This document shows, piece by piece, positions 1 to 8,041 of a stretch of DNA of 8,141 bases (position 1 is the first letter of the stretch; each line of letters opens with the position of its first letter). Source of the DNA: Candidatus Zhuqueibacterota bacterium. Lineage in GTDB: Bacteria > SM23-31. A model generated the notes under the pieces. It was not told where the DNA came from. It was given only the letters and a program-made list of their open reading frames with translations, and ran no database searches. The DNA lies in contig JADFON010000068.1 in assembly GCA_022562855.1 (NCBI GenBank), positions 1-8,141 on the forward strand, read 5' to 3'. The position numbers were made by a program, and so were the translations under genes.

Positions 1-2443
1 AAGTGACATCCCGGACTGGCGGGAATTCCATAAGATATATCTTGCGCTGGTCAAGAAATGGAGGAATATACGACGCCCGCGCAATAAACTCCGTCTGGTC
101 TGTGTGCAGTCTTTCAAATGACGAATTCGGTGTTATTTCATCATCTGCCGTAAATCCGATCCTGTTGCGCCAGGGACCGAAGAACGGTTCGGATTCGTAT
201 TGTATGATTTTATCAACAACACCCTGCGCCATTTCCAACGATTGTACGGGAAGCCTTCCGATAGCAATATCGATAAATTTATCGTTTCCGCTCACAATTC
301 CAAAAAAATCGTCTTTTACCCGGGTCGCCAATGCGTTAACATTGTTGATTTGAAAAGAAGGAACCCACATTGGCGCTGAATCAGGTCTGACTCTTAGATA
401 ATCGAAGTGACCGTCACCAAACAGCAACAAATATTGTAATGGATTGTTTTGGTTATCTCTCCAGTTTTCGAAGGCGAATTTTACAAAATCGCGGATCGCA
501 ACGGGGTCCTGAAGACCAGCAGAAAAATTATCGTAAATATCCTGAACGGTAACAACCTCCGTCGCAAGATTATCATGAGTCTGCCGAAAATCCTTTAAAT
601 TGCCGGCAGCGCTGACAAACTCTTCCGGGGATATGATAACCATGTCTATCGCCAGGTCGGTAACTATCAAGTTTTTAACCGGTTTTGGTAAAATAGCCGT
701 TACACTTTTATAATGATTCCTTCGTACGACATAAAATTGTTGTTTTCCTTCACTGAGATCATCTGAAAAAAGAGCGGTTGAATCCGCCGGATCATACGTA
801 AAATTCAACATGTGCACATTTTCAATATCGGTTATGTTGTAAATATCTAAACTGTCATCGGGAATATTCTGAAGTTCAAATGATAACGTTCCAGCAATGT
901 CGGGAGCAAAAAATTTCAAGAATCCGTCTACGGGTACGAGGCTTCTGACGTATTCGAATTTGTACCAATCTATATATGTCAGGCGATTGGAAGATTGCGT
1001 TGTGTTAGTTATACGAAAGGCGACATCTCCATTGACCTCAGTGGTGTCGGAATGAATAATTACTCTTTCATTGAAACCTGATAACGTGGAGATCCGGGGC
1101 AGTCCGTTATTAATCTCAAGGCTCAAAAACTGTGTTGCTCTCGTTACAGAACTAACTAAAACACTCAAATCAACTATTGATCCGGGTTTATATCCGGGCA
1201 GTTGAGCGGCATAATCAATTGAATTTCCTGCAGACAAAATATCCATAAACCAGTTATTACCCGATTCATGCATTTTGTGCCGTTCGGTTTCCAGGAATAC
1301 GATAGCGCCCGCCGAATCTACCGGGGACTGCGTAGTCTCAAAGGACTTAGCTTCCATTCGCTTTCCCTGGTCTCCGCCAAATGTAAACCAATATATATTC
1401 TCGCGGCTGTAAACACTTTGAAAATGACGCCAGTCGTCCTTGCCCGCATCCCATTCCCAACCCTTAGTGTCTCTACCGTAAAACAAAATATAATCCTCGA
1501 CATCGAAAGCGCCGTCTTCTTCACCTGTCACCCTGATCGCATTTTCCAGCAATCCATCAGGACGGGGCGCGATTATGTTTTCCGGGAGTTCCCTTCCGCC
1601 GTTGTTATAGATCTTTATCGTACGCGGGTCGAGACTTTCCGGTATTATTCCGTTTACCACCAGGTCCTCGTAAGTGATCCGGTAAATTCCCTCTTCACTG
1701 ACCGGGATAGTAAACCATAAACCGCTGAGAAACGGACTCGATTTCTTGCTTAACACCGGTTTGGCGGATTTTCTCCATTTTTTGCCCGACTCGTAGTTTA
1801 CAATTATATTTTCATAATACGGATCGAATTCCGAATCGGCTACTCCTGTCGAGACGCCGGGTCTGACGGCAGGCGCTACTTCCTGGGTTACCGGTGTTGA
1901 GTTGAACGCTACATGCACCACCATTCTCGACGAAATGCGCGCCTCATGCCGGACCGGATTATACTGAACCGGGTTGAAGGTAACCTGTATTACACGCTGA
2001 AGCCTGATATAACCCGGATCAGAACCGGTAAACTCTTCACCAGGATACAATCGGTTACCAAACGCCTGCGTACCGGGCACGGCTGTACCGGGGGTGTTGA
2101 CCGCTGTTATATCCGTGTAGGTTTGATAGTTGTTTTCAACCATGTCTATTACCGGGTCGGCGTTTTCGGGAATCGCTATCAAAACTTGCCTCTGCGGGAT
2201 GAGCGGTTCTCCCGGACCCGCTTCGTATATAGTATTTTCAGTTGCGAATTCGGTATAGATTACATTTTGCATTGTCTGGGTTTTCTGCACAATTACCGGT
2301 GTATAAATGATCGTTATCCCGGCAGTTCCATTCTCGATAATGGATATTTCTCCTTTTATCTGTGCCCGTACCGGCAAACTACTTATCAATACTGATGCAA
2401 CAAACAGCGTTACGCAGATAGACTGCTCAATTCGGATACCCAT
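1..2443 (-). CDS. porU: PorU-like type IX secretion C25 peptidase (sortase), N-terminal 814 residues, cut by window edge
   Basis: No stop interrupts this minus-strand frame from ATG 2443 to the left edge (814 residues). A signal peptide is clear: hydrophobic residues 9-23, then PVRA before Gln28. Residues about 208-262 hold the PorU-type entry to the beta-rich region (DPYYENIIVNYESGKKW, then GLWFTIPVSEEGIYRITYED). The C25 (gingipain-like) fold starts near 590: LLLFGDGHFDYLRV at 672-685, VPSFQ at 694, DDFFG at 711, IAIGRLPV at 726-733, and FTADDE near 764-769. The GHG motif with the catalytic His and the later Cys should lie just beyond the edge, so activity cannot be judged. In Bacteroidota, PorU cleaves the C-terminal domain of T9SS cargo at the outer surface and attaches the cargo to lipopolysaccharide. 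An in-frame GTG at 2488 would add 15 residues; I prefer ATG because it sits closer to the signal-peptide core. No Shine-Dalgarno is obvious. It could be another C25 paralogue, but the N-terminal region favours PorU. Confidence 0.85.
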   Translation of the reverse strand, partial: MGIRIEQSICVTLFVASVLISSLPVRAQIKGEISIIENGTAGITIIYTPVIVQKTQTMQNVIYTEFATENTIYEAGPGEPLIPQRQVLIAIPENADPVIDMVENNYQTYTDITAVNTPGTAVPGTQAFGNRLYPGEEFTGSDPGYIRLQRVIQVTFNPVQYNPVRHEARISSRMVVHVAFNSTPVTQEVAPAVRPGVSTGVADSEFDPYYENIIVNYESGKKWRKSAKPVLSKKSSPFLSGLWFTIPVSEEGIYRITYEDLVVNGIIPESLDPRTIKIYNNGGRELPENIIAPRPDGLLENAIRVTGEEDGAFDVEDYILFYGRDTKGWEWDAGKDDWRHFQSVYSRENIYWFTFGGDQGKRMEAKSFETTQSPVDSAGAIVFLETERHKMHESGNNWFMDILSAGNSIDYAAQLPGYKPGSIVDLSVLVSSVTRATQFLSLEINNGLPRISTLSGFNERVIIHSDTTEVNGDVAFRITNTTQSSNRLTYIDWYKFEYVRSLVPVDGFLKFFAPDIAGTLSFELQNIPDDSLDIYNITDIENVHMLNFTYDPADSTALFSDDLSEGKQQFYVVRRNHYKSVTAILPKPVKNLIVTDLAIDMVIISPEEFVSAAGNLKDFRQTHDNLATEVVTVQDIYDNFSAGLQDPVAIRDFVKFAFENWRDNQNNPLQYLLLFGDGHFDYLRVRPDSAPMWVPSFQINNVNALATRVKDDFFGIVSGNDKFIDIAIGRLPVQSLEMAQGVVDKIIQYESEPFFGPWRNRIGFTADDEITPNSSFERLHTDQTEFIARASYIPPFLDQRKIYLMEFPPVRDVT

Positions 2444-2490: not shown

Positions 2491-2524
2491 ATAAAAAAGG
2501 CGTCAAAGTAATACCTCGACGCCT
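2491..2524 (-). terminator. Intrinsic terminator in the porU upstream region
   Basis: Read on the minus strand, arms AGGCGTC (2524-2518) and GACGCCT (2504-2498) form a perfect 7-bp GC-rich stem with a 13-nt loop, followed at once by a run of six T (2498-2493) and then ATT. This is a textbook Rho-independent terminator. It sits about 48 bp before the porU ATG and 280 bp after the stop of the propeller lipoprotein gene. It therefore ends either a separate short RNA or a regulated porU leader; it is too distant to be an ordinary terminator placed next to the upstream gene's stop. Confidence 0.8.
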
Positions 2525-2672
2525 GCATTTATAAAACTTTACAGGAAAAACAAACCGGAATACGTCCGCAAAGGTACTTACTGATTCAAATACTTAAAAA
2601 TGTATTTTATATAAAAACCTTTAACGAACTGCTATAGGCTGCCTTCCTTTGTGAATATATTCTATAATAACT
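2491..2672 (-). ncRNA. Candidate small RNA or attenuator leader upstream of porU
   Basis: A strong promoter candidate (2679-2707) and an intrinsic terminator (2491-2524) in the same orientation bracket about 180 nt with no convincing coding frame. The predicted RNA has several possible helices: CAAAGG (2651-2646) with CCTTTG (2574-2569) as a long-range closing stem; AAATAC with GTATTT forming a hairpin inside it; a small CGGA/TCCG hairpin just after it; then the terminator stem. I do not recognise a known RNA family. Two readings are possible: an independent sRNA, or a leader whose terminator is bypassed to express porU, as in a riboswitch or attenuator. I found no strong competing anti-terminator helix (only about four pairs, GACG with CGTC), which slightly favours the sRNA reading. 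Confidence 0.45.
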
Positions 2673-2678
2673 TGGTAA

Positions 2679-2707
2679 ATGATAACTATATTATACTATA
2701 ATGTCAA
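2679..2707 (-). promoter_or_regulatory. Strong sigma70-like promoter facing porU
   Basis: On the minus strand, TTGACA (2707-2702, 6 of 6 to consensus) is followed after exactly 17 bp by TATCAT (2684-2679, 5 of 6). Transcription would start near 2672, giving about 230 nt before the porU ATG with the terminator at 2491-2524 in between. The region is very AT-rich, so chance matches occur, but a perfect -35 with optimal spacing is uncommon. The Bacteroidota primary sigma factor uses a different consensus, so this site argues for a classical sigma70 in this organism if it is real. The remaining spacer between it and the upstream gene (2708-2805) shows nothing further. Confidence 0.55.
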
Positions 2708-3900: not shown

Positions 3901-6126
3901 TCATCGTCTGATCACCGCTACCTTTTGAGTGCCGCTTCCGGCTCCGCTTACTCCGGCTGTGATAAAATAAATACCTGACGGCACCAGTCTCTGCTCATCG
4001 TCCCTGCCGTCCCAGAACGCCTGTGTGCCTGCCACCTCACCGCTTTCCGGGGTGAGTTTCCGCACAATATTACCGGAAAGAGACGAGATCAGAACAGTAC
4101 TGTTAATTTTAATGTTATCAATGGTCAGTCTTCCTCCGGATCCGCCAATAATAAACGGGTTTGGGTACACGATAATTGCATCGAAGGTTTCCGGGGGTGT
4201 TTTAAAGGGGGTCATAATTTTCGAAAGACCCTTTCCTGTTCCTATATAGGCGTCACCGTTATTCTCGTCAAATGTTATACTGATAATAAAATTATCAACA
4301 ATGTCGCTGTTATCGGTGGTATAATGGGTCCATGTCAGGTTATCGGATGCAAGCATACTCACACCGTTACGTGTTCCGAACCACTTGTTGTTTGCGGGGT
4401 CTACGGTAACCACTGTTATAAAATCACCGATAGCGCCCCGAATACTTTGAATCGGAAGTCCGTCTATAAAATAATTTATTCCTTCTTCTGTACCAATCCA
4501 CATTCCGATTTCCCTGTCGGCAGCCAATGCGGTTATCCTGTTGCTGTTTAGATCGTCCGTGGTCGTAAAATGTGCCCAGGTATCGTCCGATTTGTTACCG
4601 GCAGTACCGCCAAAATCAAGCCTGTCAACGCCGCTGTTTTCAGTTGCGATCCACAGCCTTCCTAATAAATCAAATGCAATATCGCTCACGGCTGTATTTG
4701 TCAATCCATCGGATAAAGAAAAGTAATTCCATTCATTTTGGGGGCTTACTACAGCGATGGCGTTACCGTTGTCAACAAATTTATTGACAATCCACATATA
4801 ACCGTCGTCTCCGCGAATAATCTTATTCACGATGACAAACTCCGCAGTTTTTGCACCTCCAAGCCGTCCGTCTGTCGTGTCAATTAATGTAACGACAAGG
4901 TCGCCGGAAGAATCGTCTAATATCATCAATCCCTCTCCCGGTGTTCCAACCCAGATTCTCCCGGACGGACCGGTTGCAACCCCTGTTGTATTATTTGAAA
5001 CAAGACCATCGGCAATAGTAAAATGTGTCCACTCGGAACCGTCAAATTTATAGATCCCATTGTTCGATGCCTGACCGGTGGCAAACCATACATTACCGGC
5101 ATTATCAAAAGTCATCTCTTCAAACGTGTTGCCTCCGGGACCGGGTGGAAATACATTTAACCACCTTTGCCGGGGTTCGTCATATACAAATAGCCCTTCT
5201 TTTTGATGACCAGCCCAGACCAGGCTATTTTCATCACGGACCACAGTATTTACATTACTCAATCTCTGCGTAAGTTCCAACCATGATGCAGCGGAAACCT
5301 GTCGAAATACCCCGATATTTGTCGCCGCGTGGATCACCCCGTCCAGGTTTTCCAGACGGTTAACCTGTATACCTCCCAATCCTTCGCCGGATACATTCCC
5401 ATTCACAATAGCGGCGACCCCGTTTTTGGTCCCGGCATATATAACTCCGCCATTTTCGGTAAAATCGAAAACATCATTTGAGGGAAGCCCGTCTGCCGTC
5501 GTGAAATTCTCCCAGAACTGGGGGTCCTGCAGGTTTGGCGATGAGAGTTCAACGGACGCAACACCCCGTTCGGTGGCTGCCCAGATCCGGTCGTTCGCAA
5601 TAAACAGTCTTCTCACAGGCGTATTTGTCACAAAACTACCGAGATTACGAAACGTAGCCCTGATCTCTTCTTTAGAGATCAAAAATTCGCTGATTCCGAA
5701 ATCTAATGCGAGATAAAGTACGTCGCCGAGAATTGCAATATCGTTAATTCGGATAGGGTCAGGGTCGATCTGGACCCTTCTGATCGAAATGTCATCCAGC
5801 TTTACCACATTCAACGACCCGTCGTCCATGCCAATCCACAACTGATTTTGTGAATCGACCACAAACGAGGAAGGATTATTAGATGACAGTCCGGATGTGT
5901 TGTTCAGTATGCTGAACGTGTTTAATGAAATATCGTAGGCAAACACACCGCCCCCGGTAGCCGCCCATATATCGCCGGAATTTACAAGCAGATCGCGTAT
6001 TTCACCCTGATAGGTGAATGATCTCCAGGTTACCTGCTGGGAATAAAGCGTTTTGAAATTTATGATAAAGAAGGAAAAAAATAATAGTGCGGTATAGACT
6101 ATTCTTTTATAACTGTTTGGAGGCAT
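3901..6126 (-). CDS. porZ: PorZ-like T9SS protein: two seven-bladed propellers plus C-terminal sorting domain
   Basis: A 741-residue protein. A signal peptide spans about 1-29 (KR, hydrophobic 9-24, cleavage after LYS before QQ). Fourteen two-component-regulator-propeller motifs (such as IWAATGGGVFAYD) start near residues 53, 96, 137, 181, 229, 265, 303, 346, 391, 444, 491, 542, 581 and 627, which fits two seven-bladed propellers. Residues about 650-741 are a T9SS/FlgD-Ig-type sorting domain: VYPNPF at 653-658, LTIDNI, LSGNIVRKL at 683-691, FWDGRDD, then VPSGIYF and KVAVIRR at the end. This architecture and length match PorZ (Porphyromonas PorZ is about 776 residues), which recognises the C-terminal signal of cargo and works with PorU in the attachment complex. 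No histidine kinase or DNA-binding part is present, so it is not a hybrid sensor. It follows accA by 65 bp and may share its transcript. The alternative is an ordinary T9SS-exported propeller protein; the nearby PorU supports PorZ. Confidence 0.75.
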   Translation of the reverse strand: MPPNSYKRIVYTALLFFSFFIINFKTLYSQQVTWRSFTYQGEIRDLLVNSGDIWAATGGGVFAYDISLNTFSILNNTSGLSSNNPSSFVVDSQNQLWIGMDDGSLNVVKLDDISIRRVQIDPDPIRINDIAILGDVLYLALDFGISEFLISKEEIRATFRNLGSFVTNTPVRRLFIANDRIWAATERGVASVELSSPNLQDPQFWENFTTADGLPSNDVFDFTENGGVIYAGTKNGVAAIVNGNVSGEGLGGIQVNRLENLDGVIHAATNIGVFRQVSAASWLELTQRLSNVNTVVRDENSLVWAGHQKEGLFVYDEPRQRWLNVFPPGPGGNTFEEMTFDNAGNVWFATGQASNNGIYKFDGSEWTHFTIADGLVSNNTTGVATGPSGRIWVGTPGEGLMILDDSSGDLVVTLIDTTDGRLGGAKTAEFVIVNKIIRGDDGYMWIVNKFVDNGNAIAVVSPQNEWNYFSLSDGLTNTAVSDIAFDLLGRLWIATENSGVDRLDFGGTAGNKSDDTWAHFTTTDDLNSNRITALAADREIGMWIGTEEGINYFIDGLPIQSIRGAIGDFITVVTVDPANNKWFGTRNGVSMLASDNLTWTHYTTDNSDIVDNFIISITFDENNGDAYIGTGKGLSKIMTPFKTPPETFDAIIVYPNPFIIGGSGGRLTIDNIKINSTVLISSLSGNIVRKLTPESGEVAGTQAFWDGRDDEQRLVPSGIYFITAGVSGAGSGTQKVAVIRR

Positions 6127-6191: not shown

Positions 6192-7169
6192 TTAGGTTTT
6201 CTCAATCCATATCCCCATTTGACCAAACTTGTCAATTCGCTTTTCGATACGTTCCTCGGGGGACATTTTCTCAAGAATATTGAGTTCCCTGAGAATCACG
6301 GATTTGACTTCCTCTGCAGCCAGGTCGTAGTTTCTGTGTGCTCCGCCTACCGGCTCTTTGATAATCCCGTCCACTACGCCAAGCTCAATTACATCGGAGG
6401 CTGTTACTTTGAGAGAATCCGCCATAGCGGGAGCTTTTGTCGGATCCCGCAGTAAAATCGACGCGCAGCCTTCCGGCGAAATTACAGAGTATATGGCATT
6501 TTCGAGCATGAGCACCCTATCGCCGATAGCCAACGCCAACGCCCCGCCGCTGCCTCCTTCACCGATCACGATACAAATCACCGGCACAGGCAGAGTGGAC
6601 ATCTCGAAAAGATTGACGGCGATCGCCTCTGCGACGCCCCGCTCTTCCGACCCCTTACCGGGGAACGCGCCGGGTGTGTCGATAAGCGTCACAATCGGTT
6701 TATTAAACTTTGCCGCAAGCTTCATCAACCGCAGGGCTTTCCGGTATCCTTCCGGGTTCGGCATCCCAAAGTTGCGGTAGAGATTGCTCTTTGTGCCCCT
6801 TCCTTTCTGATGACCGATCAACATTATGTTGTGCGTTACACCCTTTTCGGTATCTTCGATGGTCGCCAGACCGCCGACAATCGCTTTGTCATCGGCAAAC
6901 AGCCTGTCGCCGTGAATCTCAATAAACTTAGAGCACATTCTCTTTGCATAATCAAGCGTATAGGGACGTTCGGGGTGACGCGCAAGCTGGACTCTCTGCC
7001 ACCGGGATAAATTCGAATAAACATCCTTTTTTAATTTTTCGCACCGTTTTTCGAGCTTGAGAATCTCATCGGTCATATCGATCTCTTCCGAAACGGCATA
7101 CTCCCGCATCTCGTCGATCTTTTTCTCCAACTCAACAATGGGCTTTTCGAATTCAAGAATGTGAATCAT
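6192..7169 (-). CDS. accA: Acetyl-CoA carboxylase carboxyltransferase subunit alpha
   Basis: AccA pairs with AccD to move the carboxyl group from carboxybiotin-BCCP to acetyl-CoA, giving malonyl-CoA, the first committed step of fatty-acid synthesis in the cytoplasm. The 325 residues match the family length (about 320). The N-terminus (ILEFEKPIVELEKKIDEM) is the usual AccA coiled start and supports ATG 7169. Conserved blocks follow: RHPERPYTLDY (64-74), FIEIHGDRLFADD (82-94), GHQKGRGTK (119-127), GMPNPEGYRKALRLM (135-149), DTPGAFPGKGSEERG (164-178), the crotonase-fold oxyanion segment GEGGSGGALALAIGDR (203-218) and SPEGCASILLRD (231-242). All appear intact. No other acc or fab gene is visible; accD is often unlinked in bacteria. 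A promoter candidate lies about 70 bp upstream, and an inverted repeat sits just before the start. Confidence 0.97.
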   Translation of the reverse strand: MIHILEFEKPIVELEKKIDEMREYAVSEEIDMTDEILKLEKRCEKLKKDVYSNLSRWQRVQLARHPERPYTLDYAKRMCSKFIEIHGDRLFADDKAIVGGLATIEDTEKGVTHNIMLIGHQKGRGTKSNLYRNFGMPNPEGYRKALRLMKLAAKFNKPIVTLIDTPGAFPGKGSEERGVAEAIAVNLFEMSTLPVPVICIVIGEGGSGGALALAIGDRVLMLENAIYSVISPEGCASILLRDPTKAPAMADSLKVTASDVIELGVVDGIIKEPVGGAHRNYDLAAEEVKSVILRELNILEKMSPEERIEKRIDKFGQMGIWIEKT

Positions 7170-7684: not shown

Positions 7685-8041
7685 ATGAATGTGAGATATT
7701 TAATAATCATCGAAGAAATCAAACAGCTTATCGACAGCGATGTAAAAAACAACAATTATGTTACTAATTTTGTCGATAATTATGGTATCCGGAAAAGAAT
7801 ACTTAGCGATTTGTTCCGGCTTGAATATGGTTATGGTATAAAAGAATACATAGGGACGGTCAGAATTGAATGCTTGCGTAAAATGATCAAGAACTCAGAC
7901 AATAACGTATCAATAGTATCCTTTACATTTGCTGTCGAGCTTGGTTATAAAGATTCCTCCGGGTTGCATAAACTCCTTGATCGCAAGCTGAAACTGAGTC
8001 TTGAAGAGTTCGTTGAATTAGTCAATTCCGAAAAAGGCTGA
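7685..8041 (+). CDS. Stand-alone AraC-type helix-turn-helix protein
   Basis: A 118-residue protein that is almost entirely an AraC/XylS DNA-binding domain. The first helix-turn-helix spans about 24-50 (YVTNFVDNYGIRKRILSDLF, then RLEYGYGIKEYI), followed by the linker helix with the usual basic pattern (VRIECLRKMI, 59-68). The second covers 74-113: NVSIVSFTFAVELGYKDSSG, then LHKLLDRKLKLSLEEFVELV, matching the family pattern of I-x-x-(I/F)-A-x-x-(L/V)-G-(F/Y)-x-(D/S)-x-S-x-(F/L). There is no N-terminal sensing domain; residues 1-20 form only a short helix. It deviates from consensus in places (Phe80-Thr-Phe-Ala in the second motif and Lys-Leu-Ser in place of Gly-(V/M)-(S/T)-P near the end), so it may be divergent or specialised. 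Codons are more AT-rich than in the genes to the left, hinting at transfer. The start is set by ATG 7685 with only a weak upstream AGAAG. Its target is unknown. Confidence 0.75.
   Translation: MNVRYLIIIEEIKQLIDSDVKNNNYVTNFVDNYGIRKRILSDLFRLEYGYGIKEYIGTVRIECLRKMIKNSDNNVSIVSFTFAVELGYKDSSGLHKLLDRKLKLSLEEFVELVNSEKG

Follow-up and report, generated by a model that had tools for sequence, protein, structure and literature searches.

A putative transcription-attenuating leader RNA upstream of the type IX secretion genes porU and porV

Judged from sequence, one and the same RNA precedes porU or porV in more than 50 genomes that span at least five bacterial phyla, and it likely acts in cis as a transcription attenuator, the leader RNA of a type IX secretion (T9SS) regulon. 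Sequence support extends to its promoter, the conserved element, the hairpin formed by segments 1 and 2 (1:2) and the terminator hairpin 3:4, and, in the phylum of the analysed DNA, in Calditrichota and in some other groups, to a competing helix 2:3. Attenuation as such appears well supported, and we infer that termination is regulated.

Architecture of the window leader

The window, the whole 8,141-nucleotide stretch of Candidatus Zhuqueibacterota DNA that was analysed, encodes on its minus strand accA, a porZ-like gene with a PorZ_N propeller, a PD40 beta-propeller gene and porU. The PD40 stop codon at 2806 and the porU ATG at 2443 are separated by 362 bp, the gap length already given in the first-pass annotation. 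The features of the leader and its target gene are as follows.

2..2443, minus strand: porU, target gene of the leader, with Propeptide_C25 and Peptidase_C25 domains, cut at the window edge
2679..2707, minus strand: promoter TTGACA (2707-2702), 17-nt spacer and TATCAT (2684-2679), 11 of 12 matches, of the type preceding 58 of 63 elements
2564..2649, minus strand: conserved leader element, covariance model R2, 43.9 bits
2637..2647, minus strand: P1 5' strand GGAAGGCAGCC, with an RRGGA-like start close to the expected RNA 5' end
2630..2636, minus strand: conserved internal-loop side UAUAGCA, the A of UAU invariant in 59 of 59 elements
2617..2629, minus strand: segment 1, the P2 5' arm GUUCGUUAAAGGU, the most conserved stretch
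2564..2575, minus strand: segment 2, the P2 3' arm ACCUUUGCGGAC, pairing with segment 1
2571..2581, minus strand: alternative segment GUAAgUACCUU, putative antiterminator partner, complementary to the terminator loop; the equivalent helix covaries in Calditrichota
2544..2556, minus strand: P1 3' strand GGUUUGUUUUUCC; support for P1 is weak in the window's phylum and strong in KSB1
2508..2517, minus strand: segment 3, the terminator arm/loop GAGGUAUUAC, complementary to 2571-2581
2498..2524, minus strand: terminator hairpin 3:4 AGGCGUCGAGGUAUUACUUUGACGCCU, a 12-pair stem with six G-C pairs
2492..2497, minus strand: terminator U-run T6, read from the sequence

Analysis of positions 2300-2900 reveals two terminator-like sites where 0.2 are expected, and the window promoter match taken alone lies within chance (one found, 2.6 expected from shuffles). 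The segment 2672-2491 folds at -50.1 kcal/mol, compared with -31.7 +/- 3.8 kcal/mol for shuffles (z -4.9, 0/200). The promoter TTGACA-17-TATCAT, the GC-stem terminator with its six-T tail and the structured RNA between them, all proposed in the first-pass annotation, are thereby recovered: the promoter at 2707-2679 on the minus strand with 11 of 12 matches, the terminator at 2524-2492, and a fold more stable than that of every one of the 200 shuffles. Across the family, a promoter of the form TTGAnn-16/18-TnnnnT stands just 5' of 58 of the 63 elements, compared with a rate of 8% in shuffled flanks, and almost every element is followed by a terminator; this conservation removes the remaining doubt about both signals. 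The combination expected of an intrinsic-terminator attenuator, an own promoter and a terminator before the gene, is thus present in the window and in the family.

The porZ-like gene lies directly 5' of the PD40 gene and porU, with accA before it, and the opposite strand carries an AraC-like helix-turn-helix gene recognised by a sub-threshold Pfam match (window positions 3901-6126, 6192-7169 and 7685-8041 for this neighbourhood). Together these genes make up a T9SS gene cluster of a candidate phylum represented by six genomes.

Conservation in same-phylum relatives

Homologues of porU with 31-42% identity occur in the relatives G002, G004 and G005, which stand for three further genera within the phylum. 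Immediately 5' of the gene, each of them has a promoter of the form TTGA(C)-16/17-TAnnnT, then the strand nnTATAnnAGTTYGTTAAAGGTTT and a 3' arm that matches it, and finally, ahead of the porU ATG, a further hairpin and T-run. The gene 5' of the leader varies, being PD40 in the window's own genome (G000) and G002, GGDEF-like in G004 and others elsewhere. Direct DNA searches of the relatives returned short AT-rich chance matches only, and a search of genome contigs with a single PorU sequence found nothing; an alignment-based PorU search of the contigs led to PorU loci of many phyla, several with the leader arrangement seen in the window.

Distribution across phyla

Two covariance models describe the element. 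Since MAFFT applied to full hairpins misaligned segment 2, the first model (R1) was built from ten porU leaders with hand-defined arms and shortened loops; a partner-swap p-value from that alignment is biased and is superseded by tests on unprompted hits. The second model (R2) derives from alignment A5. Over 733 kb of PorU loci, R1 matches strongly only in porU upstream regions. Among the six genomes of the window's phylum it yields an untrained 44-bit match in G003, a 16-bp hairpin followed by T7 directly 5' of a Pfam PorV gene, together with a second leader in G005 before a 399-aa ORF of no named family. The genes 3' of this ORF specify one protein whose C-terminal domain is of the T9SS type and another that resembles PorV/PorQ, both named from sequence only.

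Within the window's phylum, R2 matches five of six genomes, and it gives no match at E<=0.001 in 380 genomes from elsewhere. Searches centred on other groups recover it in Calditrichota (18 of 40 genomes, one match each, every one before porV), in the phylum of the KSB1 MAG (8 of 82 genomes, seven matches before porV and one before a homologue of the G005 ORF, 27% identical over 349 aa, E 4e-25), in the Zixibacteria phylum (9 of 132 genomes, PorU) and in the class of the Kryptoniota MAG (14 of 197 genomes, PorU, where the ORFs L166, L172 and L176 are short or broken and are assigned by N-terminal similarity only). Six other Bacteroidota genomes (Pontibacter, Tenacibaculum, Bacteroidales, Flavobacteriales, Cyclobacteriaceae) contain no R2 match. 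The five groups with the element are accordingly the window's candidate phylum and those of the Calditrichota, KSB1, Zixibacteria and Kryptoniota MAGs, each group being called after the named record behind its search centre. Altogether the five genome searches, run mostly on MAGs with rough E-values from a shortened calibration and with strict filtering of the large searches that loses weak members, give 55 matches, nine of them training members and 46 new. A covariance search before porU homologues, suggested as a check in the first-pass annotation, therefore finds the element both in relatives and in other phyla; its occurrence before porV, its spread over at least five phyla and the competing antiterminator helix go beyond what that annotation had foreseen.

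The neighbourhoods of these matches bear directly on whether the RNA belongs to its downstream gene. If an independent small RNA gene had come to lie beside porU by chance, its own promoter and terminator would yield an RNA of about 180 nt, and hairpin 1:2 does end in a U-run in some relatives. In all 55 matches, however, the gene that follows on the same strand is porU, porV or a single other gene linked to T9SS, whereas the gene on the upstream side differs, and at E<=0.01 no match lies apart from these genes, so that a free small RNA is very unlikely. Of the two outcomes first predicted for the region, a new small RNA or attenuation of porU, the second is therefore retained, backed by conservation and covariation, and the first is set aside, because the leader keeps porU or porV while its other neighbours change.

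The hairpin P1/P2 and its conserved 5' strand

The P2 helix is the best-supported pairing of the element. Over 59 elements, in an alignment fitted to the model, 95.8% of its cells are paired, 8 of 13 pairs show compensatory change, double-change cells number 65 as against 18 in shuffles, and covariation reaches 0.400, compared with at most 0.103 for slid versions. RNAalifold, applied to a MAFFT alignment of 19 Calditrichota leaders that is not model-fitted, returns the same P2 and the terminator. For the counted pairs of P1/P2 and of the terminator, covariation lies above that of all shuffles. Conservation and covariation, whose absence in close relatives had been named in advance as evidence against the leader, are thus both present, with P2 covarying strongly.

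The 5' strand of the hairpin follows the consensus RGGA-n4-GCYUAUA-...-GUUYGUUAAAGG. Segment 1 carries 1.50 bits, compared with 1.20 for its partner; specifically, all 59 elements share U28, G30, U32 and A33 (alignment A7), and the partners of U28, G30 and U32 vary between A and G, C and U, and A and G, respectively. Because segment 1 is conserved beyond the need of pairing, it is probably bound by a trans factor, although G-U pairs tolerated on one side could account for part of its higher conservation.

The main rival to an attenuator with a protein-bound strand is a riboswitch with the folded hairpin as its aptamer, in which P1, the internal loop and P2 would enclose a ligand at the UAUA loop that stabilises P1/P2 and sets the terminator. 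The hairpin indeed presents two helices around a conserved asymmetric internal loop with a nearly invariant UAU, P1 passes partner-swap tests (0/10000; KSB1 9/9), and in KSB1 the P1 3' strand can pair with the terminator loop, three of nine cases beating shuffles. Conservation, on the other hand, resides mainly in a single strand and inside its paired arm, unlike the compact two-sided loop that aptamers mostly have; P1 has little support in either the window's phylum or Zixibacteria, the apical loop varies, and the target genes point to no metabolite. On this evidence a riboswitch is unlikely. A separate proposal, that P1 masks the porU ribosome-binding site in L063 and L069, was rejected, since the true start codons lie 3' of the terminator.

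The competing helix 2:3

In the Calditrichota porV leaders, segment 2 can pair through its 5' part with the terminator loop. For example, the segment 2 sequences GUCUGCC, GUCUACC, GUUUACC, AUCUGUC and GACUACC face the loop sequences GGCAGAC, GGUAGAC, GGUAAAC, GACAGAU and GGUAGUC, respectively. Five of the eight pairs of this helix change on both sides, and its covariation is 0.324, compared with 0.202 in shuffles and at most 0.109 in slid versions. In the window, GUAAgUACCUU (2581-2571) stands opposite GAGGUAUUAC (2517-2508). Over 58 members, duplexes of segment 2 with the member's own terminator loop average -13.5 kcal/mol, as against -9.6 kcal/mol for swapped loops (0/20000 permutations), and the own loop is better than 95% of shuffled loops in 17 of 18 Calditrichota leaders and in each of the five from the window's phylum that were tested. 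Helix 2:3 is without support in Zixibacteria (1/8) and in part of the Kryptoniota class. The layout is that of an attenuator because segment 2 cannot pair with segments 1 and 3 simultaneously, and such a mutually exclusive antiterminator pairing is found in Calditrichota and the window's phylum and not in Zixibacteria. Thermodynamic folding of the full-length leader favours the terminator even when segment 1 is blocked; helix 2:3 would therefore need to act during transcription.

Two hairpins with U-runs in a row, as in G002, G004 and G005, might also be read as tandem terminators that insulate porU from upstream transcription without any switching. Duplicated terminators can yield cross-complementarity, and hairpin 1:2 often ends in a U-run in the window's phylum, so that a non-switching tandem pair is conceivable there. 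An insulator would nevertheless have no need of the conserved promoter that, in 58 of 63 elements, separates the terminators from the upstream gene; segment 3 of G004 and G005 can pair with segment 2 through additional bases that play no part in the terminator stem, helix 2:3 covaries in Calditrichota, and the sequence of segment 1 is kept across phyla. Pure insulation is accordingly regarded as highly improbable.

Proposed mechanism of attenuation

In the attenuator that we propose, a sigma-70-type promoter would start the RNA shortly before RGGA, and segment 1 of the 5' strand would pair with segment 2 to give the imperfect hairpin P1/P2. With 1:2 formed, the terminator hairpin 3:4 and its U-run could halt transcription before porU or porV, so that the gene would be off, presumably by default. 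Removal of segment 1 would let segment 2 pair alternatively with the terminator arm/loop (segment 3), impeding terminator folding and allowing the polymerase to read on. A trans-acting factor, most likely an RNA-binding protein, may bind the conserved segment 1 and so remove it.

The same set of pairings, 1:2, 2:3 and 3:4, occurs in trp leaders, and an AGGAG-like purine stretch lies 5' of segment 1, which would suit ribosome-mediated attenuation through a leader peptide. A start codon at a plausible distance after that stretch is present in only 7 of 63 leaders and is absent from the window, and the resulting peptides are mostly unrelated, making a trp-type leader peptide the least probable of the readings considered.

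The factor-dependent attenuator would on balance represent a new class of regulatory RNA, with about 60 examples in at least five phyla, that turns T9SS on and off by antitermination at three genes (porU, porV and one other), by means of a dedicated RNA-binding factor or ligand recognising RGGA-n4-GCYUAUA-...-GUUYGUUAAAGG.

Possible variants and further members

The candidate for the third regulon gene is an exported protein family of 384-399 aa with no Pfam match (L119:467-1666 and L155:255-1406), preceded by the element in two phyla; in L119 it heads a row with the T9SS-type C-terminal domain protein and the PorV/PorQ-like protein. Two R2 matches from the genome of L046 (L128:1501-1571 and L131:1501-1568; E 0.016 and 0.031) lie 5' of a Rieske-like protein and of a membrane cytochrome-like/YceI locus. 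Each is closed by a stem AAGGyAG/CTrCCTT that T-rich sequence follows, and both are possible members outside T9SS.

Ignavibacterial porU leaders (L038, L044, L045, L046, L048, L052, L054, L061, L067 and L078) have a promoter with TTGAC, a stretch AGGAG and, resembling segment 1, a conserved motif that is shorter and approximates TAGAGAATTTGCTAC; the terminator is absent from them, and they are perhaps a variant acting at translation. Additionally, the terminator stem is similar in sequence across phyla, CCGAATG...CATTCGG or GCCGAAT...ATTCGGC (L063, L080, L124, L150-L157 and L166-L176), a conservation that exceeds the need of an ordinary terminator.

Comparison with known systems

At gathering score, Rfam 15, riboswitches and T-box included, matches nothing here except tRNA, and the best sub-threshold match of the leader is the RF04312 trpB motif, at 24.8 bits against a cut-off of 59. 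A literature search, with the candidate-RNA survey 10.1093/nar/gkx699 outside its scope, found no paper on an RNA leader of T9SS genes. The view taken from the outset that no such porU leader had been described thus agrees with both resources.

In length (about 180 nt) and in its long irregular hairpin the porU leader resembles 6S RNA (RF00013), but it has neither an RF00013 match nor common sequence. An identity with 6S RNA was rejected, since four of five same-phylum relatives have a separate 6S match of unrelated conserved sequence. Such matches lie above cut-off in G001, G004 and G005 and just below it in G002, and G000, about 80% complete, has none; the 6S-type loci L029, L030, L031 and L032 (G005, G004, G001 and G002, respectively) share a strongly conserved core AAAGAACCAACACTAA...GGTTCTTT.

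Like the trp, pyr and T-box attenuators, the leader combines a promoter, alternative pairings (1:2, 2:3 and 3:4) and, ahead of the gene, an intrinsic terminator; it differs from them in having no leader peptide and no T-box or other Rfam match, and in targeting a protein secretion system. A conserved strand on the 5' side of the switch suggests a protein site by analogy with the BglG/LicT RAT, PyrR and TRAP sites, a general likeness for which no sequence match is claimed; the strand is longer than such sites, occurs once and sits close to the 5' end of the RNA.

If the attenuator holds, it would place T9SS under RNA-level control in phyla far apart from one another, by way of porU (the sortase gene) and porV (the shuttle gene), and would make the T9SS regulon of uncultured phyla definable from sequence alone. 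It would also point to an RNA-binding factor or ligand that can be searched for with a defined bait, and the covariance model could serve as a marker for T9SS operons in MAGs. T9SS regulation described so far acts at the promoter level only, through PorXY-SigP and through ECF or other alternative sigma factors, and nearly all of it comes from Bacteroidota. Specifically, PorX/PorY-SigP of Porphyromonas is reported to control T9SS genes at transcription initiation (PMC7712824), and in Flavobacterium psychrophilum T9SS genes, porU listed among them, have ECF-type and other alternative-sigma promoters (PMC9723704). These Bacteroidota systems likewise control T9SS components, but they do so at initiation, whereas the window presents an RNA leader behind a sigma-70-type promoter.
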